Assembly: GCF_019059575.1 (NCBI RefSeq) | Contig: NW_024883410.1 | Coordinates: 23,736 to 87,735, forward strand | DNA length: 64,000 nucleotides | Source: Amphibalanus amphitrite | Lineage: Eukaryota > Arthropoda > Thecostraca > Balanomorpha > Balanidae | Direction: 5' to 3' | Part shown: positions 557-55,075 of the stretch, one piece after another | How positions within the stretch are numbered: the stretch's first letter is position 1 | How the letters are laid out: each line of letters starts with the position of its first letter | The notes under the pieces: generated by a model | The model's input: the letters and a program-made list of their open reading frames with translations, nothing else | What the model was told of the DNA's origin: nothing | Database searches by the model: none | Position numbers and translations under genes: made by a program

Positions 557-559
557 TAG

Positions 560-646
560 GTTCTTGAGTACAATGAGCAGCTGAGGTGTCCATTATGTCC
601 TCCTCCTTCCCTCTTCCCTCTCTCACTCTCTAACTCTGCCATCCAG
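560..646 (+). repeat. Upstream echo of the Bre1 last-exon head
   Basis: Bases 560-598 repeat the first 39 bases of the Bre1 last exon (647-685) at roughly 80 percent identity and are preceded by an AG (TAG at 557-559), as at a splice acceptor. The copy still encodes a Glu-Tyr-x-Glu-Gln-Leu-x-Cys-Pro-x-Cys head. The offset is 87 bases (29 codons). No stop lies between the copy and the real exon, so splicing to AG559 would add 29 residues in frame. Pyrimidine-rich sequence (599-640) separates the copy from the true acceptor. It could be a decayed duplicate or a genuine alternative acceptor. Confidence 0.75.
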
Positions 647-838
647 GTCCGCGAGTACAAGGAGCAGCTGACGTGTCCATCGTGCAAGGTGAAGCGGAAG
701 GATGCCGTGCTCACCAAGTGCTTCCACGTCTTCTGCTTCAGCTGTCTGCGCACACGCTACGAGACACGACAGCGCAAGTGTCCCAAGTGTAATGCTGCGT
801 TCGGTGCCAATGACTATCACAGGTTGTATCTGGCTTAG
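647..838 (+). CDS. Bre1: E3 ubiquitin ligase Bre1, terminal exon (RING finger)
   Basis: The acceptor (ATCCAG) lies at 641-646, the frame opens at 647 and TAG is at 836-838, giving the last 63 residues. They hold a complete C3HC4 RING: cysteines 10, 13, 25, His27, then 30, 33, 45 and 48 of this segment. The tail Phe-Gly-Ala-Asn-Asp-Tyr-His-Arg is characteristic of Bre1/RNF20/RNF40. Members of this family act with the E2 Rad6 in the nucleus to monoubiquitinate histone H2B, which promotes H3K4 and H3K79 methylation and transcription elongation. Only the RING exon is in the window; the coiled-coil body must lie to the left. Identification is from motif and terminus recognition, and the family match is close. 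Confidence 0.95.
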
Positions 839-2155
839 GTGTGACTGTGAGCGATTGTGAGTGTTGTTGTGTGAGTTTATGTGCGTTGCTGTGGTGTGTG
901 AGTAGGTGTGGCTGTCATAGGATGTGATCGTATGTGTGTCTTTGTACGATTGTTTCTGTCATCGTGGACAATCGCGGACAGGCGGTACTCGGGGAGACTC
1001 TGCTCTGATCTTTCGACTGGGATGGTTTGAGTTACATATGAGAACGAGTGAGTGAGTGAGCAGGGCGAGTGTGTCTGTGTTTAGCGGCCTGGTTGTGACG
1101 TGTGATTGTGACGTGTGACGGCCCCTGTCGGTTGGATTGCCGTCTGAAAGTGTGACGAGTCGGGCGCTCCTCTGCGGTGGTGCGCCGTCCGTCTGTGTCC
1201 CTCCCTATTGCGTTCCGCCCCTCCCCGGCCCGGCAGTCGTCTGGTCCGGGCCTGTCTATTGTATTGTATAGGGCGGTCGGATCTCCGCCGCCGCCGGCTC
1301 CCAGCGGTGGGATCAGCTCTCCGCCGCCGCAGCTGACGTAAAATACCGCCCGGCTGGTCACACTTGCTGTCCGCTGGTTAATCAAGGGACCCTTCTTTCC
1401 AGCCGACCGTTGTGCTATGGACAGCGGCGGCCTCGTGTAGCGCTATCCGCGACGTACTTAGGCTTGCTGTAATTGCCGGTCGTAGAGGTGCATTTTCCCC
1501 CAGCGGGGTTTATTCAGTGGACTGGAGAGGCGCCGCACTCTGCGGCCGACCTGAGATGGCATTTCTGATTATTGTTCCGGTCTGGTGTGGTGCCGTGCGC
1601 GCAGTTGTTTGTGTACAGACGTCGGGCCGACCGGTCCCGGGCTATATTTGTGTACAGACTAGATTTGACGGCCCGCCGGCGCCTGTCGGCTGCTGAGACG
1701 GTGCGGGGGCTCGGCCACGGCGGCGTCTCGGCGGCTGACCGTCGTTGGCGGGCTGTCCGTGCTCTCGGCGTTCACGGCAGCCCGCGTGAACCGCTGAGTG
1801 TTAGACGGCTCGCCGGCCCGGCGCGGCAGGCGCCGCCACTTCAACTGTCTCGTCCGTGTCATTAGCTATGCCCGGGAAGGGCTCGTCGTGTTTTCTTCTC
1901 TGACGGTTTGGTACTTTGCGCGCGGCGCTCGCTCGCTCGCTCGCCGGGTATTTTTCCATAGGCAGTCCGTGTATCGAGGGATGGCTGTGTTGTAATATCA
2001 AACTGTCGGGCCGCCGCGGCCGCCATGCGGCGCGCGCACGCAGCTCTCTGCAATCTGCATGTCTCCGTGGTCCTCGTGTCGATGTGACGTGACGCCGTCG
2101 GGCCGTCACGCTGATGTAATCAGTACCGCGACCAATAAACGCCTGCGATGTGACT
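839..2155 (+). other. Bre1: Bre1 3' untranslated region
   Basis: After the Bre1 stop comes about 1.3 kb with no acceptable exon. It starts with a GT-rich low-complexity run (839-960) and becomes GC-rich (1140-2100), which explains the many spurious open frames on both strands. It ends at a canonical poly(A) signal with a GT-rich downstream element. The extent is inferred from that signal. Confidence 0.6.
2134..2139 (+). terminator. Poly(A) signal of Bre1
   Basis: AATAAA lies at 2134-2139, followed 10-30 bases later by a G/T-rich tract (TGTGACTCGTGTCGG), the usual layout of a cleavage and polyadenylation site. It is the first canonical signal downstream of the Bre1 stop that I see. Confidence 0.65.
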
Positions 2156-2170
2156 CGTGTCGGTTTGGTG

Positions 2171-3177
2171 GAGGGATCGCAGACGAACGAGATGGGCTAG
2201 GATAGATATTGGTAAAGATAATTTCTCATTTTTCTTCCTCCTACAATGTTTGAATGCGAAAACATACTACTTGCAGCTCACTTTATTCGTGGACAGTGCA
2301 AGTATGTAGGCATAGTTTTGTGGTCGTTACGAAAGTTACACAATAAATTACATAACTGTTTAGATACATTTTCATTTTATGACTTCAACCACAAAGTGCG
2401 CGAAACTTCAACTCGGACTGGCTGGGCTGGTATTCGCTGCAACAAGTCGAGGCAATTTGCTTGCGCAAGATGGCAACGCTTCCGTCAATCTTTTTCCAAA
2501 GATTGATTATTTCATAAATTTATCCGGCAAGTCCTTTTACTTCTCGGGTTTGCTTCTATTATAATACAGCCGTATCTTAAACTAACCCGGCTTGTTTTTA
2601 TGTTTTTTTTTTATATTTTATACCAAAAAAAACATCGGCTTAGCGCTGGCTACGACCGCACCCTTTCGCTGAGTGTTTCAGCCAAGGCCCTAGTTTCAGC
2701 CATTAGGTTCGCCTCAATACCCGAGCATTGGTTTTGCCGCCAATTAGGCTGCACTTACGGAGTTATTTCGCTGCATTTCCACCGACAGCCGCACAGACTG
2801 GTGGGTCTAATTCGTGTTTTTACCGCTGTCGACTCGGCATTGCGGCCGTGCTGTTGCGCCTGTTGCGACGATCGATCAGAGACGGGGCGGCCACTTGGAT
2901 ACCGGTTACCATGCCCGTATTGGCTGCTGTTTAATGCCGCTCACATCATCAGCTAGCTATCGGTGTGACAATAATAGCTGTCAATAGCACCCCCAGGACA
3001 ATTATCGAGAAAATGAGTTGCCTTAATAAAAAAGCTTCCTAAGGGTCTTATCAACAGCTTGCTTTTCTAACTCATGGCATCAGCGAAAAGCTCATTGTCT
3101 GGCGATTTGCTGTTAGTTGTCACAGACATGCAGTCTTTAGACTGAATCCATTTTGCGATCGACAGGCTAGTTCTTTT
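2171..3177. other. Intergenic, nothing recognised
   Basis: This is AT-leaning sequence with T and A runs around 2600-2640 and no supportable exon, RNA gene or terminal-repeat element. Confidence 0.4.
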
Positions 3178-3296
3178 ACGGTGAGAAAGGCTACTTTAAT
3201 CCCTGCCCATAGATGGCGCTAGTTTACACCTTGGAAGATATGCTGTACCGTATTACACGTTGCCGACTCACTGCGGCTTAGGGTGAGAAACTTTAA
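3178..3296. repeat. Tandem unit, first copy (about 100 bp)
   Basis: The stretch starting GGTGAGAAAGG and carrying ATAGATGGCGCTAG recurs immediately beyond the transposon at 4209-4300, with the same order of words (ATAGATGGCGCT, GGAAG.TATGCTGTACCG, CTCACTGCG). GGTGAGAAA recurs again at 3282, so two tandem units were present and the TTAA element landed at the junction. Confidence 0.6.
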
Positions 3297-15105: not shown

Positions 15106-15413
15106 TGTTACGGGCCATATGCTAACTAGGGCAGTATGCAAACTACCCGGGCAGTATGCAAACTACCCAACAGCCCGGGCAGTATGCATACCGCCCGGGT
15201 AGTATGCATACTACCCGACCCCTTGGGCAGTATGCATACCGCCCGGGTAGTTTACATACTGCCCAGGTAGTATGCATACTATCCACCTTTCATCTCACGG
15301 GCAGGATGTTTACTCGGGCACACACAGAAAAATATTAACACCGTTAGCGGTGTAATTGCACAGTACATATCTGAGCACTTGAGGAAAGTTAATTTAGTCC
15401 CTTCCCCGCTTAA

Positions 15414-16614
15414 CCCGCGCCCCGTTGGGCTCTGCCGAGCAACGCGCCCGGTTGGGGGGGGGGGGCATTTTGCCCCCCCCCCCTAAGATCTCGAGAACCA
15501 CGCAACATAGCGACAAGCGGTAAACGGCGTTGGATAGCCCCAACGGGGAACTACCTTGTGACCCAATTTTATTGACCTAGGTCAAACCGATGACGTCACA
15601 GGTCAGGTCAAAGGTCCAATTTTCACCGTTTACAGGCACTTCAAGAAATGCGTTGTAAAATCGAGTAAAATGCATTTCATTGAAAATCATCGATGGGGAA
15701 ATGTTCTTCAAACACATATTTTGCTATTTGAGGTCACTGATACCAGGTCAGGTCACAGAGGTCAGGTCACGGGGGGGTCACAATATGAAAGTGTCGTGTG
15801 ATACATGTTTTATGGTCCATTTTACATGACAAATGCAATTATAAGGGTCAGGCAGCCTTTGGGGCCAGCTTAGATCACGTTTTGGTCAAGGTCAGGTCAA
15901 GGTCAGGTCAAGGTCAGGTCAAGGTCAGGTCAAGGTCAGGTCAAATTAGGTCAAATTTCAAAGTTAATATTTTTGCATAAAATGGGTATCGAATCGATGC
16001 AGCTCGTCACGGGGAGTTCAATGGTGGTCTTTGTTTTGCCGTACGTGGTCTAGAATCGCTAAAAATTGAGTTTAAAAATTTGACGTCATCATTTTTGAAC
16101 AGTTTTTTCGCTATAACTTGGCCAAAAAACGAGATATCGATCTGAAATTTGGTATGTATATAGAAGAGCGCTGGGACTATCACATATATTCCGGGTTTTT
16201 CGAAATTCGGAAAATTTTTTGATTTTTTCAAAGTTTTTCTAAAAAAATCAATTTTTTGAATTTTTTTTGGTCAAAAACCAAAATTTTTGAAAATCCGAGA
16301 CAGCAGTTTTGTAGCACCGCTTTTTGTCTACTAGTCCATATAAAGAACTTTGAAATTGCTTGATAACTCTAGATTTGGTGAGCGTTTCAAGATTGCATGT
16401 TTTTTGCTCATTTTTGCTCGAACATGACCTCAGTTTGACCTCAATAACTCCTGACCTAAGGTGACCTAAGACTTGAAATTTGGTGTGAAGGTGTCAAATT
16501 GATGCCCGGGAAGGTACTGAAAATTTGGCGGCGCTGCGCGCCGTCGTTTTCTTGCTATTCAGGAAAAACCACAGGGGGGGGGGGGCCAAAATGGCCCCCC
16601 CAACGGGGCGAGGG
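15414..16614 (+). mobile_element. TTAA element A (CCCGCGCCCCGTTGGG ends)
   Basis: It is flanked by TTAA at 15410-15413 and 16615-16618, with ends CCCGCGCCCCGTTGG and CCAACGGGGCGAGGG. Poly-G/poly-C pairs lie just inside both ends (15455-15483, 16574-16600). It contains AGGTCA clusters and an 11-bp minisatellite at 15884. A second copy in the opposite orientation is at 35665-36823. It is of piggyBac type by target and CCC ends, with no transposase. Confidence 0.85.
15884..15945 (+). repeat. 11-bp minisatellite AAGGTCAGGTC
   Basis: At least five tandem copies of AAGGTCAGGTC build overlapping TCAAGGTCA and AGGTCA words. The opposite-strand relative near 36340 has only one or two units, so the array expanded in this copy. 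The word TCAAGGTCA is the extended half-site known for FTZ-F1/SF-1 and ERR-type monomeric nuclear receptors. Confidence 0.8.
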
Positions 16615-16618
16615 TTAA

Positions 16619-16768
16619 ATTACTCGCGCTTCTAAATGAACACCAGGAAGAAGGTAATAGAACACTGTTAGGAGGGTTGGGTGTTTTACTACATGTAGCA
16701 AAACACCCAACCCTCCTAACAGTGTTCTATTACCTTCTTCCTGGTGTTCATTTAGAAGCGCGAGTAAT
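16619..16768. mobile_element. 150-bp hairpin element B (copy 2)
   Basis: This is the same perfect palindrome as 11031-11180 with single-base differences (TTCTAAATG for TTCCAAATG), flanked by TTAA at 16615-16618 and 16769-16772. The differences are mirrored in both arms (TTCTAAATG and CATTTAGAA), suggesting arm-to-arm correction. Confidence 0.9.
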
Positions 16769-16772
16769 TTAA

Positions 16773-19526: not shown

Positions 19527-19583
19527 GTCAGTTAACCAACAGTTCCGCATTAGTTGACACCTTGCTCATTGCCGAAATTGTCC

Positions 19584-23359: not shown

Positions 23360-23522
23360 GTCAGGCTCACACCAGTGTCACTGCCACGAACGGCCACTGA
23401 GCAGAGATGTGTCTGTAAACAAGCGCTGCTACTGATACAACAAAGAAGCGACACATTCAGTTAAGATGTCTCTTGCCTCTTGCTTCCCTTTGTTGAATTC
23501 CCTTTCCCTTTTCCCTTTGAGC

Positions 23523-35660: not shown

Positions 35661-35664
35661 ATAA

Positions 35665-36823: not shown

Positions 36824-36973
36824 ATAATAGAAAGACTAACACAGACAGACAGGCCAGGTTACAAACGAACGAAGCAGTTAAGACGGACAGACACGGACAA
36901 ACGATCCCCTCACACAAGGACAGACAGACAGCACACGCCCGAGCCGGCAGTCCCATCTCGCCGCCGCACCCAC

Positions 36974-37166: not shown

Positions 37167-37174
37167 CTGTGGAC

Positions 37175-40300: not shown

Positions 40301-40710
40301 ACCCTAGCAATCCGCAAAAGTCCTCAGAAAATACACGGCGAGGATGAATAAGTAACACCACTACCGCATGAGTACAAAGCTGTAACTCCTTTTTAATTCA
40401 CTCCCGACACGGTATAGACCGCGCGATAAGACTGCGAAATGCATGGGTCAGAATGTTTGCCATGCATTAGGCCGTTTCAGTGACGACGTCGTCCATTAGG
40501 AGCCACCTCATGATGGAACCTGTTAGATCCCATATCATACAGCTCGTCGGAATGTGACTACCAGATATTGCAATTTGAAAGGATTCTGAATCTAACCAAA
40601 AGAGAAAAAATGGAAAGACGGTAAGCCGTATGTTTGAGCAATCGTTTCAGATGTGACTGGCATTGGCGTGTTAGCAATGCTATGTCTGTACAGCGCTATT
40701 AAAAAAAAAT
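37346..40710. other. Pelota intron 6, mostly unrecognised
   Basis: This is AT-leaning sequence with a GC-richer patch at 38540-38700 and an AT palindrome at 39026-39140. No exon was supported. Confidence 0.4.
39026..39140. repeat. AT-rich palindromic repeat
   Basis: TAATATAATATA-type runs are bounded by AGCCTTGCATATAAT copies and an inverted TGCAAGGCT (39087), so the run can extrude as a cruciform. Three copies of the CCTTGCATATAAT edge are visible. Confidence 0.7.
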
Positions 40711-40721
40711 CCGGTCAATAG

Positions 40722-41275
40722 CAGGGTTGTGCTCGACTCAAAAAAATTTGCCGACTCGACTCATCATTCAACTTCAGAATGACCTGACTCAACTCTGACT
40801 CAAACAAGGAGCTGATTTTTTTTCCCTTGACTCGACTCATGACTCAAGCGGCTCAATGAAAATATGAGGTGACTCAAACTTGACTCAAATTTTTTGTTGA
40901 GTCAAATGTGTTGACTCAAAATTGACTCAGATAAAAAAGTTGTTGAGCGGGGGGGGGGGGGGGTGAAAAAATCTGGCAGCAGGGCCAGGCCTAAGTTATT
41001 AAGCGGGGGGAGGATGAAAAACTTATGCTATATATTGTTTCTAGAAAGCTGAGTCAGCTGACTCATGTTCCTAAATGCTTTTGACTCAACTCAATGTCAA
41101 AAGTTATTTTACTGACTCAACTCTGACTCAACTCAACACCTTAATGTTTTTGTCCGACTCAACTCTGACTCAACTCAACAGCTCAACATTTTATCCGACT
41201 TGACTCAAATCTGACTCATTTGAGTCAGAGTTGAGTCAAATTTCTGACTCGACTCATGAGTCAAGCACAACCCTG
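40722..41275. mobile_element. hAT-type MITE filled with TGACTCA words
   Basis: The ends CAGGGTTGTGCTCGACTC and GAGTCAAGCACAACCCTG are inverted repeats with the exact 8-bp flank GTCAATAG on both sides (40714-40721, 41276-41283). CAGGG ends with an 8-bp duplication indicate hAT. The 554-bp interior is largely GACTCAA, CTGACTCAACTC and their complements, with a poly-G run at 40949. Confidence 0.88.
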
Positions 41276-41283
41276 GTCAATAG

Positions 41284-41959
41284 CATAAAACTGCAAAGCA
41301 ATGACATTCTATACAACATATATGCAGAAATATTACCAAAGAGTGCAAAACTAGGGTGACCCGCGTGCTCCGCAACGCGAAAGGGGTATTTTCTATTGAC
41401 GGGTGTTTGGTTGTTCTTGTGTCGGTTGGGTTACCTATCCATTTCGGTCGATTGCTTTTTGACGGCTAAACGTTTTGGTTTGGGAAAAATATCCACCGCA
41501 TCGAGGTGCCCGTGTCTGATTAGCATGCTTTCCACTTCAGAATCTGTCAAATGTGCTTTATAATTTAGGCGCGTAGTTTTATGACAAATTAAAGGCGTAG
41601 ATAATTTTCACTAAAAATCGTTTTGCAGAGGTTTGAAACATTTATATTTTTAAGAATACTGTTGCTTGTCATGCAAACGTGATGATTGGATCTTGGAGAG
41701 AATTGAATGCTCTTTCCAATGATAGCATTTTCAATTGTCAAACGTATCAGGTAAAGCAGCAAAATCCGTGTAATTATTTAGTGGCACATTTTGGACAAAT
41801 ACCACTTAATTCAGCGATTTTTTCCACATTGTTTTTGATCAATAAGCTTTTCACAATTTTTCCATGAGAGACGGTACATTTCTATTGCTAATAGGCGCTG
41901 TTTCAACTCATTCCGTCTGACGATCACCTGAACTTAATATAAATTCCAAAATCCGTCCA
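41284..41959. other. Pelota intron 6, nothing recognised
   Basis: No exon, RNA gene or repeat could be supported. Confidence 0.4.
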
Positions 41960-42714
41960 AAACGTCCATTTTTCAAAACAAAGTGTCCTCCCCGGTGCAC
42001 GTGGCGCGTGCCAACCCCTGCACCGCACACCATTCGATAGCCCGTTCGATTCTCTACATGATGCTGTTTTCCCCGTACCGGTCGGGCCCACGGTTACCGA
42101 GATATTGCACCGGGACCGGACCCGTGTCGGGCAAATTTGGCTGTTTTCGCCCGTTTTTGCCAGCCGATTAATACATGTAAAGTCTATGACGCGAATTTGC
42201 ACTTTTTGGGCACGCGCCACGCGCTCGCTTCGCTATCGATCCGATCGAGCTGAGACCCATCAAAGGCACGTTGTCCATCCTTGTTCTATGAGTTGCGCAA
42301 ACTTCAGCGCGGTAGGTGCAACGGTGTGACCTGTAACCCGCGCTACGTAGCACCATGTCGCGACCTTCGTAATAGACAGAAACTACGTCACCACAAATAG
42401 TAATATAGACAAGCGGCTGCGCCACTTGCTTTGCTGCGTGGTAGGAAAAATTGCGGCACCAGCCAATTTGCTTTCGAATGGTGTTTGATTCATGTCGATG
42501 TGTCGTCTAGAAGCATAGATATGAACGGAAATGTGAAGAGAATTTAAAAAAGAACTGTTCTGAGGGCGTTGTTGGATGAAATTTGGGTGATACGGGGTCA
42601 AGACGGGTCAAAGGGGTCAGCCCCGGTCACTTTGGGTCAGGCCAGGTCACATAGGTCACCTCTCGTCCGCTGGGATCAGCCCGGGCCACTATTCTGCTTT
42701 TGTCTCCACCGACC

Positions 42715-43024
42715 ACCACTACCCCTACCCCTACCACTACCCCTACCCTACCACTACCCCTACCACTACCCCTACCACTACCACTACCCCTACCACTACC
42801 CCTACCACTACCCCTACCACTACATCTACCCCTACCACTACCACTACTGCTACCCCTACCACTACCCCTACTACTACCCCTACCACTACCCCTACTACTA
42901 CCCCTACTACTACCCCTACCACTACTACTACCCCTACCACTACCCCTACTACTACTCCTACCACTACCCCTACCCCTACCCTACCCCTACCACTACCCCT
43001 ACTACTACCCCTACCCCTACCAAC
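42715..43024. repeat. CCACTACCCCTA microsatellite, first array
   Basis: Irregular alternation of CCCTAC and CACTAC hexamers gives long spurious frames of Tyr-Pro/His or Leu-Pro repeats. It is the core of the second tandem unit. Confidence 0.95.
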
Positions 43025-44082
43025 ACCGCCGGGTCATGTCAGGTCACAGAATAATTGGATCCAATCAGTACTAAAATATCAGACATAAAGTGTTCCCAGC
43101 CCTGCCCCTATTCGTGCCATTCCATTACGCTTAATCGTATTTGTCGGAAATGGCGCTTTGTGGCATATGTGGCGCATTGCGACAAACGCGGCGCATTTTC
43201 GCCCGGCGATTGAGCATGCATCTTGGCACCAAATTGCACCCATATCGGACCATGTTTGACAAAACTGTGCGCTTTGCGGCAAAAATGACGCCCTGTGACC
43301 AATGTGACGCATTGCGGCAAACGCGGTGCATTTGTAAAATCCTATCACAAACTGTTGCCATTCAACGAAAATCAACACATTTTTTTCGCCACTTTTCATT
43401 CAAATTAATAACTTGCCGATCCGCCAATGCGAGGCACTCGCCGCCGATCGGCATGCATTTAGGCCACAAAGTTTGTCGACCCCGGCTCTCAATGAAGATC
43501 TACGAACCGATCAAAATTTCATTGGCGTTCTTCCGGCGCCCGCCACGCGCAAACCGTGCACCCCACCGACTGCAGACCCAGCAAAGGCACACGCCCGAAG
43601 CGTCGTCTACGCGGTGCGCAAGTTTCAGCCACCTCCTCGCAACCGTTTGACCTCCACGCGCCGATAACTGACCCCATGTCAGCGAAAATTTCACCAAAAC
43701 TGCGCACTGCAATATATTGGGGAGACCAAGTGCGGACAGACAGAAAGACAGACAAACAGACGATCTCAAATAGTAAGTTAGACAAGCGGCTGCGCCACTT
43801 GCTTTGCTGCGTGGTAGGAAAAAATTGCGGCACCAGCCAATTTGCTTTCGAATGGTGTGCGTTTCAAATCGATGTGTTGGCTAGAAGCATAGATATGGAC
43901 GGAAATGTGAAGAGAATTTAAAAAAGAACTGTTCTGAGGCCTTTGTTGGATGAAATTTGGCTGATACGGGGTCAAGACGGGCCAAAGGGGTCAGTCCCGG
44001 TCACTTTGGGTCAGGCCAGTTCACATAGGTCACCTCTCGTCCGATGGGATCAGCCCGGGCCACTGGTCTACTTTTGCCTCCA

Positions 44083-44452
44083 CCACTACCCCTACCACTA
44101 CCCCTACCCCTACCACTACCCCTACCTCTACCACTACCCCTACCACTACTCCTACCACTACCCCTACTACTACCCCTACCCCTACCCCTACCACTACATC
44201 TACCACTACCACTACCCCTACCCCTACCAATACTATTACCCATACTCCTAACCCTACCACTACCCCTACTACTACCCCTACCCCTACTACTACCCCTACC
44301 CCTCTACTACCCCTACCCCTACTACTACCCCTACCCCTACCACTACCACTACGCCTACCACTACCACTACGCCTACCACTACCACTACGCCTACCACTAC
44401 CACTACCACTACCACTACCACTACCACTACCACTACCACTACCACTACACGT
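44083..44452. repeat. CCACTACCCCTA microsatellite, second array
   Basis: It has the same hexamer mix as 42715-43024, in the matching place of the next tandem unit, ending in a pure CACTAC run (44390-44450). Confidence 0.95.
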
Positions 44453-45734
44453 ACGGGGACCAGCAGTTGCTACTGTACAGCGACCCTGCGTAAATTGTCC
44501 CAGCACCCTCACAGGGAACAACGATAAGCTGTCAGAGGGCACGCACAGAAAACCTCAGCTGTTCTTGCACAGGGACCGGCAGTCGATATCAATGCTATCG
44601 GTTGTTACTGGACAGGATAGACGGCTAGAGTTGGGGTTCGTGTACAGAAGCAACTGCGGGTCCCCGTACCCCTACCCCTACCTTCTACCACTACCCATCT
44701 TTGCGTGGCGATTACTGGGCAGTAATCGCCACGCCATGTGTGGATCGCCCATGATCGTAAATACAATACAATACAATACCCGTATAACTAGTAACTACCA
44801 CTACCTATGACTGGGTCATGTCAGGTGACGGAATAATTGGACTACAATAAGTCCAATCAGACTTTAAAAGTGCTTCTAGCCCTGCTCCAATTCTTGCTAT
44901 TACATAACCCCTAATCGTATTTGTCGGAAATGGTGCTTTGTTACAACCGTGGTGCATTGCGACAAACGCGGCGCATTTTCATCCGGTGATTGAGCATGCA
45001 TCTATGCACCAAATTGCACCCACATCGGACCATATTTGACAAAACTGCGCGAGTTGCGGCAAAAATGGCGCCTTGTCATCAAAGTGACGCATTGCGGCAA
45101 ACTCGGTGCATTTGTATACTCGTATCACAAACTGTTTCCATCGAACGAAAATCAACACATTTTTTCGCCACTTTTCATTCAAATTAATAACTTGCCGATC
45201 CGCCAATGCGAGGCACCCGCCAACGATCGGCATGCATTTAGTCCACAAAGTTTGTCGACCCCGGCTCTCAATGAAGATCTACGAACCGATCAAAATTTCA
45301 TTGGCGTTCTTCCGGCGCGCCCCACGCGCGAACCGTGTACCCCAGCGAGTCGGAACCTAGAAAAGGCGTTGACCCGCTCTGTCACCTAGAAGGTGTGCAA
45401 ATTTCAACTTCCTACGACATACCGTCTGCCCTGTGGGCGAGGTCAATTGAACCCACTACACGATGTGCGGACACACAAACTCACAGACGGATTTTGTTGG
45501 AATAGTAAGTTAGATTTAGAGTACTTCACATATAAATCGCGGAATTTTACCATTTAAGAAATAGCGATCCCAGAGGCTGGATTGGGTCGGAAATATTGAT
45601 AAAGCACTCATCCTTCGTACATATCCTGGTTCTGTACACCGTTCAGGCACAATACGGATAAAAATCGCTCTATGACGGCACCAGATGCCCACCCATCAAC
45701 AGATGTTGCACACCGACCCCGCTATATGACTGAC

Positions 45735-45957
45735 CTTTGAGCGAGTGTTTGAAGCCGGACGAGGCGTGTACCAGCAGAAACTTGCCCTTGCTCTCCAGCA
45801 GCTGTTTGTTGTCCGTCTTGAACGCCGTCTGCCACATGTACTCGGCGAACTGGTCCTTGACGAAGCCGGGACTGGCGATCAGCACGCACTTCACCACGTC
45901 CAGCCGCACGTGACGCAGCACCGCCTGCATCACCGTCTCGAAAAACCTCTGCAGGCC
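45735..45957 (-). CDS. pelo: Pelota, exon 6
   Basis: The acceptor GATCCCCAG lies above 45957 and the donor AAAG|GTCAGT below 45735. The 223 bases encode about residues 181-254, including Asp-Val-Val-Lys-Cys-Val-Leu-Ile-Ala-Ser-Pro-Gly-Phe-Val, Thr-Asp-Asn-Lys and His-Ala-Ser-Ser-Gly. This is the central eRF1_2-like domain, which in Pelota lacks the GGQ hydrolysis motif; none is seen here. Confidence 0.95.
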
Positions 45958-46649
45958 CTGGGGATCGAACGCCAGACAGCGTGGTCATTGATGTAGATCC
46001 GACCTAGCTATAAACAATCAATTTAATTACGCCTCTGCGACGAAAACAACGCTTTCATCAAAATTATTTTTAAGTACTTTTGCATGCCCAAATGACGTCC
46101 GCCAAAACACAATCATTTTTACATGGTTTAATAGACATCGTTAGCAAAGGAATATCATATCAAATCAATGCTTAGTAGCATCAGCCACCAGCCTCCCGCA
46201 CACCGTGCACTAATCACCACCATAGGCGACACCTGGTGTCGAGAATGGTAAGGCACACTTCATGCATTGGCCGCTGATACCAGCGCCACCAAACTCGCCA
46301 CCGGGGATAACGAGATATGAGGAGCTGGCATTTTACCTCGAGATATGATAGCACGCGTGTTCCCGTAGCATGAAGTTGAATGCAGTAAAATGACAATGTT
46401 CGACCAAAAACTTGAGATCAAATGTATCATGTCAACGTCCATGCCATTTAACCAGGAGCCTGCCACTAATAGGGTTAAAACCGTAAAACGACATGATCGA
46501 ACATCGACACTGCAGCCTGCAGGAAAAGTAAAACGACGAACTGGCAGGCAGCATTGGAAGCACACCAACGCTGCGACAAGGGGTCCCCTAAGTAACCTGA
46601 CTAACTCACACTTAGCCACCAGTTACTTCACACACGCGGTACGCCTCAC

Positions 46650-46790
46650 CTTCTCGTGCTGCGAGGTGTGCCCCTTACGTTTCCTGGGGATGGACTGGTC
46701 GATTTTGGCTCTCACAATGGTCATACAGGAGGTGACCAGGCAGACGTGAGCGATGCCCTCCTGCATAACCACCGCTGCCAGATCCGCGTG
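46650..46790 (-). CDS. pelo: Pelota, exon 5
   Basis: The acceptor GTGCCGGGCAG lies above 46790 and the donor GAGAAG|GTGAGG below 46650. The 141 bases are phase 0 at both sides and encode about residues 134-180, with Ala-Val-Val-Met-Gln-Glu-Gly, Arg-Ala-Lys, and Ile-Pro-Arg-Lys-Arg-Lys-Gly, the basic strand typical of the start of the Pelota central domain. Confidence 0.95.
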
Positions 46791-47221
46791 CTGCCCGGCA
46801 CACCGCGTCACAAGGTCATCAGGGCGGCCAAACGGCACATCAAACATATTACAGACCGCCTGGCAGTGGAAGGAAGAATAAATGAAAACAGCGATCGTCA
46901 GCCAGCAAAGCATCTGCTCCGAATGTGTTGTCAAATATTTCCTATCATTACAAATGCAATAATAGCAGGCTTTCTGTTCCTTGTTTGTTTGTTTATTGGG
47001 GCTTAAGGGCGCGCCGACTACAAGGTCATTTTGCGCCCATAACTATATACAAGTAAAGCAAGTGTGTCACAAGAAAACCGACGTAATAAAAGGCTTAAAA
47101 AAGCCTAAAAGCTGGTTAAAAAGAGCAAAGAAGGGTAAAATACTCCAAGCGTATCGTAAAAGACAGCTGACTAGGCGTAAGGACTAGATTAGAATAGACG
47201 TATGGACTAGTTGGTTTGGTA

Positions 47222-50200
47222 TCAGATCGAGTAGATTACTTGGAATTTGATTGAACGGATAAAGGAAAAGATGTTGCCAGATAAAACCCAGGGTGACTCG
47301 TCACCCAGCAAGTGGCGGACGGTGATATCCGGAGCGATGCGGCCCAGGTAGCGAGTCCGGTCCGGTTCCAAGCGTTGACAAGATAAAAGCACGTGGGCGA
47401 CGGTGAGAGGCACGGCGCACCCGCCGCAAACGGGCTGCTCATCTCCGCGGAGAAGGTGGCCATGCGTCGCATACGTATGACCGATGCGGAGCCTGCATAA
47501 AATCACTTCGTTTGACCTGTTGTCTTGCGAGCAAGACCTCCAATGCTCCAGAGTCGGCTTCACCTCTCGGAGCTTCCTGCCTCCACGCAGGCGCCACTCT
47601 GCCTGCCACTCCGTTAGAATAAAAGATCGTACAGCAGGGTAAAAATCACGCGCCGGCAATGGCAACCGACGAGTGCAGGGTGCTGCAGCAGCACGCCTTG
47701 CAGCCGCGTCTGCCAGCTCATTGCCATGAACGCCAACGTGACTGGGAATCCAGCAGAACTGAACAGATTTACCCGATTGTTCTACTGACTGAAGCCGAGC
47801 TAAAATGTCTTGAACGATCGGGTCGGCTGGATTAAAACTCCGTAGGGCCAACAGGCTGCTTAGGGAGTCCGATAAAATCAAGTAAAAAGGTCCGTCCGAT
47901 ACCTCAATAAAACACAAAGCCTTCTCGATGGCAACAAGTTCCGATGAAAACACCGAGGCGAAAGATGGCAACGAAAATGAACGGGTATCGTCGCCAGCGA
48001 CGAAAGAACAGCCCGCTCCCTCAGGTGTTTTAGAGCCGTCTGTGAATACAGGAATAAAACCATCGTAAGAGGCAAGGTGTTCCAAGGCTCGGACTCGTGC
48101 CTCTGCAGGCAGCAACTTGCCCTTTGGAACTGCAGACAGCGAAAGATCCACCTGTGGACTGACACTTTTCCACGGTGGAGGGGGCGCAGCCCAGGTACGA
48201 CGAACGTTACGCAATGCTATGTCAGCTATTGAAAACAGTTCTTTCATGCGCACTCCGAACGAGGGTCGTAACCTTCCGTTACATCGGGTGGCATGCCGTA
48301 AAAAAACGTATGGGTACGTCGGGTGCATAGGAAATTGGCGCAGTTTCAGCGCGTACCGCATACCCAACATCTGACGGCGGAGTGAAAGTGGCGGTTCATG
48401 CGCCTCAGCAAGAATGCTGCTCCTGGGCGAGGTGCGGAATGCTCCGGTGGCTACTCGGAGTGCTGCATGATGGACTGTATCCAGGACCCTCTTGCTAGAT
48501 TCACTCGCTGAATCGTAGACAAAAGAAGCGTAATCTAGCTTCGATCGTACAATAGATCGATATAGAAGAAGAAGGGTCCTGCGGTCCGCACCATAAGATG
48601 TGCGGGCGACACATTTTAAAACGTTCAGGGATTTAAAACATCGTTCCCGAAGCGTTCTAAAATGTTCTTTATACGTTAAACGACTGTCAAAAAAGATCCC
48701 AAGAAACTTCGCCACCGGACGAGTAGGAATCATCTGTCCATAGAGCTGGATTCCCAAGGGAAGGTCGCCGCAGCGGCGGCGGCAAAAGTGCATAGCGACG
48801 GTCTTCGTTGTTGAAAAACGAAGACCGTTGTCTCGACTCCATCTCTCCAACCGCGTCACTGCAAGCTGCAGCTGTCTGGCCATATGCCGAGCGCTTGAAG
48901 CGGCAAACCAAATGGCAAAATCATCCACGAAGAGCGATCTACCGATCGAGACCGGCAGATCATCAGCGATGTCATTGATCGCCACTGCAAAGAGCGCCAC
49001 ACTAAGCACCCCGCCCTGGGGAACTCCGTTATCTTGGGTAAAACTGCTCGAAAGACTACTGCCAACTCGGACTTTGAACCGACGACCCGATAAAAAGTTC
49101 TTAATAAAGAGGCCCATCCGGCCGCGTATGCCGTACTTGTGTACTTTGGAAAGTATTCTGTGTCGTAACACTGTATCATAGGCCGCCTCAATATCAAAGA
49201 ACAGTGCTCCAAGGTGCTTCTTTTCAGTAAAACAGGTGCGTATCTCGGTGTCGAGGGCTAAAATGTGGTCAACAGGGCTGCGGTGCTTTCTAAAGCCGCA
49301 CTGGGCGTTTGTAAAAACACCGTGATGTTCCAAAAACCAGCTAAGACGCACATTGACCATCTTCTCCATCAGCTTTGAAAGCGATGATGTGAGAGAGATG
49401 GGCCGATAGTGGAGAGGGTCATGTCCCGACTTGCCAGCCTTCAAGATAGGAATGATAGTGGCTTCCCGCCAGGTCTCAGGGAAAGTGCTAGTCTCCCAAA
49501 GCGAATTGAAAGTTGCTAGCAGCGCCTCGAGGGCAACTGCTGGGAGATGACGGAGCATGTCGTTGTGGACAGCATCCGGACCTTCTGAGACGCTGCGCAA
49601 CGAGCTGATGGCAGACGTGAGCTCAGCCATAGAGAAAGGCTCATTGTACATCAAATTTTCAGCTGTGCTGAAGTCCACGGCGGCTGGTGCAGGTCGTGAG
49701 GACGGCTCTCCTCGGCAGCGCTGATAGAGTGCACGGCCTATCGTCTCTGCGACGTCTAAAGGGTGGGATATGTCCGTGTTGTTCACTCTTAAAACCGGAA
49801 GCGGAACAGAGCTGAACCGGCCTTCAATGCGCTTCATGCGTGCCCATATCTGGGTCGTAGGAGTAAAACGGTTTAAGGAACTCACGTACGTGCGCCATGA
49901 AACAGCCTTTGCCTCTTTTAAAACGCGACGGGCAAAAGCCCGCGCTTTCTTAAAAGCGATGAGGTTCTCAGTAGTACTACTCCGGTCAAACTTTCTAAAA
50001 GCGCGCTTCCTGGCACGAATCGCATCTCCGCATTCCTTGGTCCACCACGGGACCGGAGGACGACGAGGCTGACTCGACGTCTTGGGTATGCACCCGTTTG
50101 CGGAGTCAATGAGTAAACATGTAAAATCCTCTGTAGACATCACAGAGGGGTCGGCTCTGGATAAAACCGTGGCCTCTACGGCGGCCTGGAATTCGCCCCA

Positions 50201-50992
50201 GTCGGCCTTCCGAACATTCCACCTAGGTGGACGGTTGCCTGACACTGGGGACTCCTGGTGCTCCAGCCACACTGGGAAGTGGTCGCTCCCGAGTGGGTCG
50301 TCATGGACGGACCAGGTAAAAAGCTGAGCTAGCCGCGGACTGACTAAGCTCAGGTCCAGAGCCGATGTTTGACCGGAGGGTGTTGTAAAATGGGTGCGCT
50401 GTCCTGTATTTAAAATACACAGCGCCTCATCGCGGATAAAAGATTCTAAAAGTCGACCACGAGTGCCAGTCGTGTCGCATCCCCACGCCAGGCTATGGGC
50501 ATTAAAATCGCCGACTACCAGGACCGGAGGTGGAAGCTCATCGACAAGTCGATGCAGCTCAACCACCGGGAGCGCTATACCTGGTGGTAGGTATAAAGAG
50601 CACACTGTCAGTTCCCGGTGGTTGAAATCAACTCTGGCGGCCACCGCCTGCAGAGGAGTCTGCAGCGGCACCTGGCGAGCAGGTACGCTGTGGTGAACCG
50701 CCAGAAGCACACCTCCATGGGCAATGGTAGGGGTGTCCAGGTCTCTTCTAAAAACAGAGTAGCCCTTGATGGCAAAGGTAACGTTTGGCGCTAGCTTGGT
50801 CTCCTGGAGACCTAAAACAAGGGGTGTGCGCCAACGGATAAGAGACTGTAGGTCCTGGTAGTTGGCCCGGAGGCCTCTACAGTTCCACTGTAGAATAAAA
50901 GGCGTGGTTAAAAAGGCGCAAAAAGGGCGCGTATAACATGAGGCAAAGGCGCACACAGATACCTGACTGACCACAAAAAAGGTAAAAAGCAC
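47222..50992 (-). CDS. LINE ORF2: endonuclease, reverse transcriptase, RNase H
   Basis: One uninterrupted frame of 1256 codons. An APE-type endonuclease comes first (Asn near 36, Gln-Glu-Thr-Lys near 63, Gly-Asp-Phe-Asn-Ala-His near 161, Ser-Asp-His-Phe near 236). The reverse transcriptase has Phe-Asp-Ile-Glu-Ala-Ala-Tyr-Asp near 599, Gly-Val-Pro-Gln-Gly-Gly near 656, and a catalytic Phe-Val-Asp-Asp near 688. RNase H carries Thr-Asp-Gly-Ser-Lys near 984, Ser-Glu-Leu-Val near 1018, Ser-Asp-Ser near 1041, and Asn-Glu-Leu-Ala-Asp near 1091. A C-terminal Cys-x2-Cys...His...Cys cluster lies near 1189-1205. All catalytic residues are present, so the protein may be active. The true start may lie some codons after the first Met. 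TTTTA words are strikingly frequent on the sense strand. Confidence 0.95.
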   Translation of the reverse strand: MLFTFFVVSQVSVCAFASCYTRPFCAFLTTPFILQWNCRGLRANYQDLQSLIRWRTPLVLGLQETKLAPNVTFAIKGYSVFRRDLDTPTIAHGGVLLAVHHSVPARQVPLQTPLQAVAARVDFNHRELTVCSLYLPPGIALPVVELHRLVDELPPPVLVVGDFNAHSLAWGCDTTGTRGRLLESFIRDEALCILNTGQRTHFTTPSGQTSALDLSLVSPRLAQLFTWSVHDDPLGSDHFPVWLEHQESPVSGNRPPRWNVRKADWGEFQAAVEATVLSRADPSVMSTEDFTCLLIDSANGCIPKTSSQPRRPPVPWWTKECGDAIRARKRAFRKFDRSSTTENLIAFKKARAFARRVLKEAKAVSWRTYVSSLNRFTPTTQIWARMKRIEGRFSSVPLPVLRVNNTDISHPLDVAETIGRALYQRCRGEPSSRPAPAAVDFSTAENLMYNEPFSMAELTSAISSLRSVSEGPDAVHNDMLRHLPAVALEALLATFNSLWETSTFPETWREATIIPILKAGKSGHDPLHYRPISLTSSLSKLMEKMVNVRLSWFLEHHGVFTNAQCGFRKHRSPVDHILALDTEIRTCFTEKKHLGALFFDIEAAYDTVLRHRILSKVHKYGIRGRMGLFIKNFLSGRRFKVRVGSSLSSSFTQDNGVPQGGVLSVALFAVAINDIADDLPVSIGRSLFVDDFAIWFAASSARHMARQLQLAVTRLERWSRDNGLRFSTTKTVAMHFCRRRCGDLPLGIQLYGQMIPTRPVAKFLGIFFDSRLTYKEHFRTLRERCFKSLNVLKCVARTSYGADRRTLLLLYRSIVRSKLDYASFVYDSASESSKRVLDTVHHAALRVATGAFRTSPRSSILAEAHEPPLSLRRQMLGMRYALKLRQFPMHPTYPYVFLRHATRCNGRLRPSFGVRMKELFSIADIALRNVRRTWAAPPPPWKSVSPQVDLSLSAVPKGKLLPAEARVRALEHLASYDGFIPVFTDGSKTPEGAGCSFVAGDDTRSFSLPSFASVFSSELVAIEKALCFIEVSDGPFYLILSDSLSSLLALRSFNPADPIVQDILARLQSVEQSGKSVQFCWIPSHVGVHGNELADAAARRAAAAPCTRRLPLPARDFYPAVRSFILTEWQAEWRLRGGRKLREVKPTLEHWRSCSQDNRSNEVILCRLRIGHTYATHGHLLRGDEQPVCGGCAVPLTVAHVLLSCQRLEPDRTRYLGRIAPDITVRHLLGDESPWVLSGNIFSFIRSIKFQVIYSI

Positions 50993-51073
50993 CGAGAGAA
51001 ATGCACCTGGTAAAAAAGCGCAATAGCGCGAAAAAGATAAAAGGATAAAAGAGGAAATGACTAGACTGAAAGA

Positions 51074-52834
51074 CTAGACTAGGTCCTCTAACTCCGAGGA
51101 GGCGCTCCCCCCGTAGCGGATACGGGGGTGCCCTGAGCCCTCTCGGTGAAGCCTCCCTTCAGCAGAGGCAGATCGGGCATGGCTCGGGCCCGGCTGGGGC
51201 CTTTTCGACCGGGGGGCGTCGCCCTCCGAAGGTGACCAGCTCGGGGGCGTCTGCCGCTTGGCGAGGCGCCCTGGAGCCGCGGAGGGCTGTTGCCGCCCCG
51301 ACGGGGATGTCGAGGCGGCGGCCTGTGTCCTCGACACAGGCGTCTCTGGCAGCGGCGGTGGTGGCCGCCGCTGCGGAGGTGGAGGAGGCGGCGGGGGACC
51401 CATGATGGGCCGAGTCCCCGCCTCAGGTGTCTCCGGGGTGTCAGCGGCGACAGCCGCATTGGCACTCCCGGAGGCGGAGTCGGCAGACGAGGCTTCCTTA
51501 GCCTCGAGGGCCTTCTGGACGAGGCGAGCCCTCCTCGCCTCACGTGCCCTTCTCTCCTCCTCCCCCCGCCGCAGAGCCTCCTGCACCGCCGTAGACGGTC
51601 GGGGGCGGGGCGGGGTGGGTGGCGCCTTACTCTGCGCCGGGGGGCGCCGACCACCCTGTCGGCGCTGGACGACGATCCAATCGTCTCCATTACCGTTCGC
51701 GGCTGGAGCGGGACTGGGTGGACCCCACACTGACTCTTGAGCAGCCTGCTCTGTGTTGCTCGGCGGCGCACGAGGCGCCGTGTTGTCCGCTGAGTCACCA
51801 GTGGCTACGACGGTGAGGCCGAATCGTTTGAGAAGCTGCACGAGCTGTGCTACGCTCATCTGGGAGGCATCGGTAGAGTTTGTGACTCTCACCTTCTGGG
51901 CATACGAGGTCTTCGGGTGACTCTGGTTGTACACCTCCCGGGCCTCTTTGAAAGACAGATTTCTGGTAGCCTTGATGGTCATGATCTCTTTCTCCTTGAC
52001 GTATGCAGGGCAAGACCTATCATACGCGGAGTGCGGCGTCTGCCCCTCTCCGCAGTTGACGCATCGGGGGGTCTCCGAGTCACAGGTTTCGTCAGTGTGG
52101 TCCTGCGAAGCACACTTGGAGCACGTGGGTCTTCCTCGGCAGTTGTCCTTTGTGTGGCCGAAACGTTGGCAGCGGAAGCAGCGCATGGGCGCTGGGACGA
52201 AAGGCCGCACGCGAACCTTCACGTAGCCCACGCGAATCTCACTCGGCAAGTCGGTAGAGTCAAATGTCAGAATGATGTTGTTGGTCGAGACCGTGCCTCT
52301 CTTCGTCATGATGCGGCGAGCCGCTGTCACGCCGAAATCGGCGAGCCCGTCCGCAATATCCTCGTCGCTCACTCCCCTCAAATCGAAACAGTTAATGACC
52401 CCTCGTGAGGAGTTCTTAGAACGGTGGGGCTCCACTGTAAGCGGGATGGAAACGAGCCTCCGGCCGGATGCCCGTCCCTCGGAGAACACGAAGCGAGTAG
52501 CGTCCAATGCTTTCGCCGCCTCCTCGCTTTTCCTGAACTCGACCTCCAGCGCGCCATCACGCATCCGGTCACAACGAACTATCGAACCAAACCGGTCGCA
52601 GCCATCCTTCCGCTGGAAGGGCGACAGAGAGCTCAGCTCCCTGTCTGCGCTCCGGAAGATGAGGATCTTAGGAGATCGTGGACCTTTTTCAAGCACCGTT
52701 CGCCTGTCGGCCGAGGCCAACGGGCGAGGATCGGCCGAGGCCGAAGGATTGGTAAGAGTGGGGGAAGGGGGGTTGGTCGAGTTATCCATGGAGTGTGCTT
52801 GGTCTCCGCCAGCTCGGCCGCCGACGCTCCGCAA
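51074..52834 (-). CDS. LINE ORF1: gag-like nucleic-acid-binding protein
   Basis: The frame has 586 codons, with the likely start at the second Met (residue 16, Met-Asp-Asn-Ser). Residues about 55-215 form an RNA-binding-like domain. Three CCHC-type knuckles follow at about 219-232, 238-251 and 258-275, the last widened. The C-terminal half is Pro/Arg/Ala-rich and disordered, with runs of prolines near residue 490. It ends 81 bases before ORF2. ORF1 of this group coats the element RNA and escorts it to the nucleus. Base composition is much GC-richer than ORF2. Confidence 0.92.
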   Translation of the reverse strand: MRSVGGRAGGDQAHSMDNSTNPPSPTLTNPSASADPRPLASADRRTVLEKGPRSPKILIFRSADRELSSLSPFQRKDGCDRFGSIVRCDRMRDGALEVEFRKSEEAAKALDATRFVFSEGRASGRRLVSIPLTVEPHRSKNSSRGVINCFDLRGVSDEDIADGLADFGVTAARRIMTKRGTVSTNNIILTFDSTDLPSEIRVGYVKVRVRPFVPAPMRCFRCQRFGHTKDNCRGRPTCSKCASQDHTDETCDSETPRCVNCGEGQTPHSAYDRSCPAYVKEKEIMTIKATRNLSFKEAREVYNQSHPKTSYAQKVRVTNSTDASQMSVAQLVQLLKRFGLTVVATGDSADNTAPRAPPSNTEQAAQESVWGPPSPAPAANGNGDDWIVVQRRQGGRRPPAQSKAPPTPPRPRPSTAVQEALRRGEEERRAREARRARLVQKALEAKEASSADSASGSANAAVAADTPETPEAGTRPIMGPPPPPPPPQRRPPPPLPETPVSRTQAAASTSPSGRQQPSAAPGRLAKRQTPPSWSPSEGDAPRSKRPQPGPSHARSASAEGRLHREGSGHPRIRYGGSASSELEDLV

Positions 52835-53489
52835 CGGCGCCGCTACAAGGCCTGGGACGGCCGAGCTGACTGTACGGGACTTGGCGGCACCTTCCGCGGG
52901 GGAGAGAGAGACTCACCACCCCCCACGGTCGGATACCGCCTCCTCCCTTGACGCCTAGCCGAGTCACCGCCAGGGGCAGCGACGGATCAGTCCCACCGAC
53001 GGAGGACGAGCACAAGTGCCCGAACCCCGCCGGCGACACCTCTCAGACACCACCCCCGGCGGCGTCACGACTGGGAATGGCTCCTCAAGTGCGGCGCCCC
53101 ACTGAGTGTCCCGCCCTTACAGAACTCAGGGCCAAAGAGGCGTGTTGCCCAGCCACCGCGACTGGCTCCGCACGGTGGGGGGCTCAACCTCCAGGATCCC
53201 GTTGTCCTGGGGTACGGGTCGGCTCGCCTAGCCTAGTAAAACCGGCTGGTACCCGAGGGGACGCCACTCCCCTTACACTAGCCCAACTCGGCTGTGTTCC
53301 TGCGGGTGCAAAAACAACGAAAAAGGTAGGAAAAGAATCAGAAAGCTGTGATCGAAAGAAACGCGGACATCCGGTGAAAAGCAAAGCAAAAGCAAACAGA
53401 GACCGCTCAAGAGAAACAAAACCACGAAAACCAAGAAAAGTCGGGCCGTACCATCTGTCCAACCAGCGATCAAAGCAAGTCGCAAGCAA

Positions 53490-53765
53490 GCATGGGTCAA
53501 GCTGGGGCCGAGGGGGCGCTACTCCCCTTGCTGGCCGAGGCCAAGGCCGCCGCGGGGCAAAGGCCCAAGGAACCCAGTCCGACAGCGACCCCGGCCACTG
53601 CCAACCCCCTGCGGGGCCAATCCTGCAGACAATCCATCCAGTAAGCAAGGCAAGTCCAGGTCAAAACGCGCGTCAAGCTGGGGCCGAGGGGGCGCTACTC
53701 CCCTTACTGGCCGAAGTCACAGCCGCCGCACAGCCGGAGCCAGATGACCCCGGCTAAGCAGCAGC
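53490..53765 (-). repeat. Tandem monomers in the LINE 5' region
   Basis: GTCAAGCTGGGGCCGAGGGG with GCGCTACTCCCCTT recurs at 53669 after 53496, an offset of 173 bases; a weaker relative (CGAGGGGACGCCACTCCCC) lies near 53251. CAGCCCCCTGCGGGG also recurs. Such monomers often carry the internal promoter of LINEs, which is inference here. Confidence 0.65.
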
Positions 53766-53881
53766 TCTGACCACGGTCAGCCCCCTGCGGGGAGTTGATA
53801 TTTCACGAAAAGATGACATTACAATGTCAACCATCATCACAATGACCGAAGCTAACCGCAGGTCGTCGCCAGCGACCGTAC

Positions 53882-53995
53882 CTGAGTGGGGTCACAGGCC
53901 ATCTCCACCCGCTCGATGGAGATGGAGTCCCAGTAATTCTTCTGCAGAGAGAACTTTCGATTGGCTTCTATGTCCAGGGTGTGGTACGCTCCCAT
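53882..53995 (-). CDS. pelo: Pelota, exon 4
   Basis: The acceptor TCTTCTGGCAG lies above 53995 and the donor ACTCAG|GTACGG below 53882. The 114 bases are phase 0 and encode about residues 96-133: Met-Gly-Ala-Tyr-His-Thr, Arg-Lys-Phe-Ser-Leu, Trp-Asp-Ser-Ile, Ala-Cys-Asp-Pro. This is the end of the Pelota N-terminal domain. The LINE begins less than 100 bases into the following intron. Confidence 0.95.
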
Positions 53996-54142
53996 CTGCC
54001 AGAAGAGGAAAAATAAGCTCGTAAAGCAGAAAAAAAGGAACATCTCTCCGGCACCCGTGACACTTTGGGGCCGGATAACACAGAAAAACGATTCCCTATT
54101 TCAACCAAGATATGTTACAAGAAAAAAACAGACGCATCTAAC

Positions 54143-54426
54143 CAGGGCTGCGGAGTCGGAGTCGGTCGGAGTCGACAGTTGTGACCGGAGTCGGAGTCGG
54201 AGTCGATTTTAGAAACCCGAGCCGGAGTCGGAGTCGAAGTCACCGAAAATCTGTCGACTCCGCAGTCCGCAGCCCTGCTAGGTCTGCGGAGTCGGAGTCG
54301 GGAGTTGGAGTCGGTCGGAGTCGACAATTCTGCCCGGAGTCGGAGTCGGAGTCGGAGCTAGTTTTTGAAAGCCGGAGTCGGAGTCGGAGTCGGAGTCGCC
54401 GAAAATCCATCGACTCCGCAGCCCTG
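54143..54426. mobile_element. hAT-type MITE filled with GGAGTC words
   Basis: The ends CAGGGCTGCGGAGTC and GACTCCGCAGCCCTG are perfect inverted repeats with the 8-bp flank CATCTAAC on both sides (54135-54142, 54427-54434). The 284-bp body is two similar halves meeting near 54280 and consists mostly of GGAGTCGGAGTC repeats. The many short Ser-Arg-Ser frames are repeat artefacts. It lies in Pelota intron 3. Confidence 0.9.
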
Positions 54427-54706
54427 CATCTAACAGACAATGGCTTTACACAATTAATAGTTGACTAAAGCCATCGGTGATACGGCCTTCCGGCAATTTG
54501 TTAAAGCTAGATAAAAGTACAAAAATGCACCAAACACACTGTGGGCATGGGTCGTCTACCCCCATTTCGGAGCTGTCTGTCTAATGGAGCAGACCTCCGA
54601 AACACTTCAATCTCAACACTCTGGGCCCGATACTATCGCCGCCAATGTAAGATCAACCGTTTACTCTGACCCCATCCTCGCGTAGCTCGCTCAGGCGGTA
54701 CCGCAC

Positions 54707-54857
54707 CTTGACATACTGGTTCTCCTCCACGTTCCTGCCCTTGATGCGCAGCACGGCCGCGTGTGTGTCAAAGTCCATATCCTCCGCCTGAATGGTGAGG
54801 GTGGTGCGCACTCGGTTACTGGAGGAGGAGCCCGTGGCCGACTCGGTCTGTACCTTC
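54707..54857 (-). CDS. pelo: Pelota, exon 3
   Basis: The acceptor CCGCCCTCAG lies above 54857 and the donor GTCAAG|GTGCGG below 54707. The 151 bases encode about residues 45-95: Lys-Val-Gln-Thr-Glu-Ser-Ala-Thr-Gly-Ser, Arg-Val-Arg-Thr-Thr-Leu-Thr, Asp-Phe-Asp, Leu-Arg-Ile-Lys-Gly. The head of this exon is repeated two or three times upstream (54880-55075). Confidence 0.95.
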
Positions 54858-54879
54858 CTGAGGGCGGAGGGGAGGACGG

Positions 54880-55075
54880 TTACAATGTAACTGGAGGACG
54901 AGCCCGTGGCAGACTAGGTATGCACCTTCCTGCGGGTGAAGGGGGGGGGGGGGCGGTTACAATGTAACTGGACGACGAACCCGTGGCCGCCTAGGTCTGC
55001 ACCTTCCTGCAGGTGGAGAGAGAATGTTACAAAGTTACTAGACTGGGAGCCCGTGGCCGACTCGGTCGGGTACAT
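54880..55075 (-). repeat. Upstream copies of Pelota exon 3 head
   Basis: On the gene strand, copies of GAAGGT..ACC.AGTC.GCCACGGGCTC with a preceding CAG begin at 54929 and 55006. A third (GACCGAGTCGGCCACGGGCTC, about 55035-55070) lacks the acceptor. Offsets are 72 and 77 bases. In the first two, the Glu codon after ACC has become TAG, a stop in the Pelota frame. Confidence 0.85.

Follow-up and report, generated by a model that had tools for sequence, protein, structure and literature searches.

Tandem duplications across 3' splice junctions in a barnacle genome, and their probable relation to the mirages of amphioxus

Self-comparison of a 64,000-nucleotide stretch of the genome of the barnacle Amphibalanus amphitrite (C1913:23736-87735 of the G000 assembly; hereafter the window) reveals that five acceptors, in the genes for Pelota, Bre1, a secreted peptide and a membrane protein, are preceded within the intron by copies of the sequence around them, which we call echoes. 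These copies are tandem duplications of 46-112 bp that straddle the 3' splice junction. At each of the five acceptors the repeated unit consists of the intron end, usually with its AG, and about 32-48 exon bases; as the unit contains the intron end, the junction has been duplicated and not the exon head alone. A preliminary description of this DNA had reported upstream tandem copies at these five acceptors, and all of them were located. It also held that only the acceptor and exon head are copied, which is correct as far as the recurrence of heads goes, but the units include the intron end, and at secreted-peptide exon 3 tail and donor sequence is duplicated as well. With a probability of roughly 0.82, we consider the arrays to be mirages, i.e. 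small tandem duplications with one intronic and one exonic breakpoint. The phenomenon is real, commoner than is visible in the window and of a known kind, and the apparent bias towards acceptors is its interesting part. The features concerned, in window coordinates, are as follows.

555..646, + strand: Bre1 echo unit with the remaining intron before the real acceptor, from self-comparison; in both haplotypes
647..838, + strand: last exon (exon 12) of Bre1, an RNF20/40-like RING gene, from RING tails, some named BRE1, at up to 90% identity
14707..15105, + strand: six echo units in secreted-peptide intron 2, with junctions before 14729, 14809, 14864, 14916, 15025 and 15071
15106..19343, no strand assigned: 4.2-kb insertion with inverted terminal stretches, between the array and exon 3; absent from the second haplotype
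19366..19526, + strand: secreted-peptide exon 3, from A. amphitrite proteins P0188 and P0189 and splice signals
19579..19666, + strand: tail echo of secreted-peptide exon 3 (exon end and donor), a copy of 19466-19553 placed 113 bp downstream
23043..23224, + strand: two echo units of the membrane-protein gene, with junctions before 23063 and 23153
23225..23400, + strand: membrane-protein exon 2, modelled from splice signals and open frame alone
29406..56982, - strand: Pelota gene, nine coding exons, all GT-AG, 385-residue product
36974..37166, - strand: Pelota exon 7, from the spliced gene model and protein match
37167..37342, - strand: one echo unit of about 112 bp in Pelota intron 6, with its junction before 37278
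54707..54857, - strand: Pelota exon 3, from the spliced gene model and protein match
54858..55067, - strand: two full echo units and a partial one in Pelota intron 2, with junctions before 54929 and 55006

Junction copies within and beyond the window

The Bre1 last-exon copy has its junction before position 560, 87 bp upstream of the real acceptor, and is 84.6% identical over 39 aligned bases. Successive junctions are spaced by 90 and 72 bp in the membrane-protein gene, by 72 and 77 bp at Pelota exon 3 (where the partial third copy extends to 55067) and by 46-109 bp in the secreted-peptide array, while the single copy at Pelota exon 7 stands 112 bp from the real junction. The secreted-peptide array is far from exon 3 because of the 4.2-kb insertion; in the second haplotype, described below, the array adjoins the exon. 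The AG is intact in five of the six secreted-peptide copies of the window and in three of five in the second haplotype, and the tail echo of exon 3 is present in both. Palindromes of the GGGCAGTATGCATACTGCCC type, in repeated copies, and nested repeats make up the inverted ends of the insertion.

Acceptor and head copies recur beyond the window, which supports this part of the preliminary description, at Bre1 exons 6, 9 and 11 and in two genes of the Cpn60/TCP-1 (CCT) family. Bre1 exons upstream of the window were placed by a repeat-blind codon-position test on two haplotypes, together with an open-frame search. Head copies accompany three of the acceptors of Bre1 exons 2-11 (at 75 bp for exon 6, 106 bp for exon 9 and 68 bp for exon 11), the exon 9 copy being weak and degenerate with a score of 30, equal to the cut-off; tail copies are found at none of the ten donors. 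The CCT family served as an unrelated sample, in which 55 of 101 genomic exon matches were used, on nine contigs; the remaining matches were for the most part duplicates on other contigs or lay beyond the retrieved stretches. Head copies occur at two of 47 CCT acceptors, C1029:183081, with three extra units, and C401:185731, with a 47-bp unit and 3 bp of microhomology as judged by eye. None of the 48 CCT donors has a tail copy.

Turnover between haplotypes and comparison with known systems

A query of 601 window bases also matched a second genomic locus, at 85% identity. This region, C359:350001-450000, is collinear with the entire window contig; the aligned blocks have about 82-97% identity and are separated by one-sided insertions. 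Of the contig bases, 61% align to it (non-collinear matches included), and all nine Pelota exons as well as the secreted-peptide exons are recovered. C359 is probably the other allele, segmental duplication being the alternative, and we refer to it as the second haplotype. C1913 and C359 are mostly 85-95% identical with many one-sided insertions, as if the assembly had kept both haplotypes. For comparison, a median difference of 5.3% between putative alleles is given for 66 coding genes of Balanus improvisus (PMC8270832; citations here and below refer to portions of the papers named).

The arrays differ between the haplotypes in presence and in copy number. At Pelota exon 7 the window haplotype carries two units and the second, which lacks the echo, one; the echo of Bre1 exon 11 is likewise found in the window haplotype and not in the second. 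Counting the real junction, the membrane-protein gene has three junctions in the window and five in the second haplotype, and the secreted-peptide gene seven and six, respectively. Both haplotypes share the donor copy and the echoes at Pelota exon 3 and at Bre1 exons 6 and 12; the Bre1 exon 9 echo was not detected in the second. These differences in unit number indicate that the arrays gain and lose units. The coding exons of Pelota are free of stops in both haplotypes.

Mirages are tandem repeats across exon-intron boundaries, named in amphioxus Adh3 and later described in the globin genes BflGb6 and BflGb9 (PMC3087553), with PGBD5 and troponin C as further cases (PMC3902484). Their copy number differs between BflGb6 haplotypes, so that their length is unstable, and they occur at both intron-exon boundaries (PMC3087553); somatic instability has been reported for Adh3 (via PMC3087553, PMC3902484). 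As in amphioxus, where units measure 10-160 bp and AG or GT is intact in many copies (PMC3087553, PMC3902484), the barnacle units lie head to tail and contain the intron-exon boundary, splice signals are intact in many but not all copies, and array length is unstable between haplotypes. Both 3' and 5' boundaries are hit, the donor side by the single copy at secreted-peptide exon 3. Since the arrays share these testable defining features, we class them as mirages in another phylum. They differ from the amphioxus cases in belonging to an arthropod, in affecting several genes on one contig and in lying mostly at acceptors (ten heads and one tail). The preliminary description knew of no genome that repeatedly makes such copies, a view that the same arrangement in amphioxus contradicts (PMC3087553, PMC3902484). 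Among the literature matches listed, no title or abstract opening places a mirage outside lancelets, in barnacles, other crustaceans or elsewhere.

Two other systems are similar in part. Intron gain by tandem duplication (near intron pairs of Drosophila, PMC2891723; potato RdRp, PMC4974935) also involves small duplications that include splice-site sequence, but there a new intron arises within an exon, whereas in the barnacle an existing junction is duplicated. For Pelota, the one gene for which it was considered, intron gain is rejected: the protein is unchanged, the copies lie inside existing introns and there is no new intron. The new introns of Daphnia pulex, also a crustacean, have direct repeats at exon-intron edges that are ascribed to break repair (PMC4202315); those of the repeats that an adjacent exon shares are 4-12 bp long and belong to newly gained introns (PMC4202315), whereas the barnacle units are 46-112 bp long and lie in existing ones.

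If the arrays are mirages, the first duplication would have arisen by slippage, or by end joining with little microhomology (by eye, 1 bp at Pelota exon 7 and, as noted above, 3 bp at the CCT exon of C401), and later expansion and contraction would have proceeded as in any minisatellite. Each unit, those of the CCT genes included, carries the 3' intron end, usually with AG, followed by some 15-48 exon bases, with successive junctions 46-112 bp apart. Copies would be tolerated where the last one precedes a complete exon with its donor; as the last copy fronts a complete exon, normal mRNA could still be made and the copies could persist, while those damaging to splicing would be lost. The barnacle provides a second animal, mirages having been named so far from lancelets in the literature portions cited, in which splice junctions can be tested as hot spots of small duplication. 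Its mirages, frequent and variable between haplotypes, may bear on how splicing chooses the last acceptor and on whether such duplications feed intron gain or shifts of exon boundaries.

Acceptors, donors and control sites

The total sample comprises 70 acceptors and 70 donors (48 CCT and 22 contig donors), which is small in comparison with a genome-wide survey. Head copies are found at 10 of the 70 acceptors (eight automatically and two by hand) and tail copies at one of the 70 donors (p = 0.009). The two hand-counted acceptors, Bre1 exon 12 and secreted-peptide exon 3, are missed by the junction-spanning test, the former by one query base and the latter due to the insertion; such rescue was given to acceptors only, and not to donors or controls. 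The bias may be inflated because the window was picked for its copies, because sites on the same contig are not independent and because CCT and Bre1 splice sites were placed by signal score. Some splice calls are uncertain, as the donor of Bre1 exon 2 lacks GT in the second haplotype, and placements in the tests are offset by one base at secreted-peptide exon 4 and by two at the donor of secreted-peptide exon 3. In an earlier exon-only test with a 45-base head, four of 11 acceptors and none of nine donors ranked among the highest 4% of positions in the window, and on the CCT genes one of 35 acceptors and none of 35 donors scored; the junction-spanning test replaced it because an exon head of 15 bases (L049) had escaped it.

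Random positions score positive for heads in 3.7% of cases in the window (n = 4040) and in 1.7% at the CCT loci (n = 8734), and for tails in 4.3% and 1.6%, respectively. By the automatic criterion, true acceptors (8/70) score higher than acceptor-like sites with good pyrimidine tracts (3/200, p = 0.001), acceptor-like sites with weak tracts (81/2379, p = 0.003) and pyrimidine tracts without AG (30/891, p = 0.004). The control sites overall score 1.5-3.4%, and the tract-matched comparison gives 5/38 for true acceptors against 3/200 (p = 0.003). The controls exclude cryptic sites less than 250 bp from a same-strand true acceptor, and of the non-AG sites only every ninth position was retained. 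That pyrimidine tracts alone account for the copies is rejected, as none of the three control sets shows a clear excess over the random rates.

The preliminary description suggested a local process initiated at 3' splice sites, and called for a genome-wide comparison of head copies with tail copies and random exon segments. In the pooled sample of 70 acceptors and 70 donors, heads exceed tails, and they exceed the controls as well. However, the CCT acceptors alone (2/47) are not distinguishable from the 1.7% background (p = 0.19), and the second haplotype has no clear excess of heads over tails. In the comparison of the two haplotypes, for which query cut-offs were one base wider so that Bre1 exon 12 is included, echoes are found at seven of 23 acceptors of the window haplotype (eight with secreted-peptide exon 3) and at three of 23 of the second (five when Bre1 exons 6 and 12, recognised by eye, are added), while one of 22 donors has a tail copy in each; for the second haplotype, heads against tails give p = 0.61, or 0.19 with the cases seen by eye. 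Outside the window, heads are found at 5/57 acceptors and tails at 0/58 donors (p = 0.027), but the same acceptors give p = 0.06 when set against the 3.7% window background and p = 0.05 when set against either of the two larger control sets. An excess of acceptors over donors, its cause left aside, is therefore likely and the acceptor bias suggestive; the added controls and the second-haplotype count weaken the bias and not the identification as mirages.

Of the explanations other than mirages, a local process that yields an excess of duplications at 3' splice sites, by template switching, through R-loops or from breaks at the edges of exons, is a tentative one, and we consider it unlikely. 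It would be tied to functional 3' splice sites, leaving duplications at acceptors and rarely at donors or decoys, and it would have been recently active, because two copies in one contig are haplotype-specific. The pooled counts, the three control sets and the out-of-window heads and tails favour it, against which stand the CCT sample, the out-of-window backgrounds and the second haplotype. Amphioxus mirages, moreover, hit both boundaries and the barnacle itself has one donor copy, and constraint on exons may keep exon-spanning copies recognisable for longer than those confined to introns.

It also seems rather improbable that background minisatellites overlap acceptors by chance in a repeat-rich window that was chosen for them. 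The rates at which random positions pass the head test, and the failure of the CCT acceptors to exceed theirs, are what chance would give. Self-comparison of the window yields 18 local duplication clusters, covering 7.0% of it, and by eye four of its 13 modelled acceptors fall within a cluster, a count that is a biased test because of the way the window was picked; the acceptor of secreted-peptide exon 3 lies outside the clusters because the insertion separates its array from the exon. Against chance, three of the ten acceptors of Bre1 exons 2-11, which lie outside the window, have copies (p = 0.005 against 3.7%), although one of the three is at the cut-off.

Several points weigh against the identification as mirages in the form proposed here. 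The allelic status of C359 is an inference, microhomology was judged by eye and at two junctions only, and normal splicing is assumed. The rate is uneven, with copies at 8/23 contig acceptors and 2/47 CCT acceptors (p = 0.001). Furthermore, duplication blind to gene structure, followed by selection, predicts equal numbers at donors, so that 10/70 as opposed to 1/70 argues for an extra factor.

Coding potential, assembly and neighbouring repeats

We find it very unlikely that the copies have been retained as alternative acceptors or coding exons, and the supply of alternative acceptors suggested in the preliminary description appears speculative. AG and pyrimidine tract are intact in many copies, and in the window haplotype the Bre1 and membrane-protein copies are in frame with the real exon. 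However, the copies at Pelota exons 3 and 7 run into stops, and in the second haplotype all four membrane-protein copies are out of phase and three have stops in the exon frame, so that the frame of these copies shifts between haplotypes. Two copies are missing from one haplotype altogether, and copy sequence is absent from the public A. amphitrite protein records of Pelota and the secreted peptide, which agrees with splicing to the last copy. An exception may be the copy at Bre1 exon 12, which is in frame.

That the arrays are artefacts of assembling two divergent haplotypes is most improbable: the 807.6 Mb assembly does contain the region twice, but most units aligned within an array differ by some 6-25%, and both contigs contain five arrays (those of Pelota exon 3, the membrane-protein gene, the secreted-peptide gene, and Bre1 exons 6 and 12) as well as the donor copy. 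Tandem exon duplication is ruled out because the units stop within the exon.

The spliced Pelota product is 100% identical to the A. amphitrite Protein pelota across the full 385 residues, which identifies the window as DNA of this acorn barnacle. The secreted-peptide gene matches P0188 and P0189 (144 and 168 residues), which differ by the inclusion of exon 2 (14405-14476), present in the public protein P0189 and not in P0188. Pelota intron 4 carries an element at 47225-52912 (- strand) with two long open frames of 1283 and 612 codons, stop to stop, and with motifs that we take to resemble those of a non-LTR retrotransposon. The element is missing from the second haplotype, in which positions 46959 and 53797 map 13 bases apart. 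At 42394-45367 a segment is duplicated at 88-89% identity and carries two hexanucleotide arrays (consensus ACCCCT and ACCACT; 307 and 367 bp), and upstream of Pelota, at 57714-58274, lies a minisatellite of about 25 degenerate 20-bp units.

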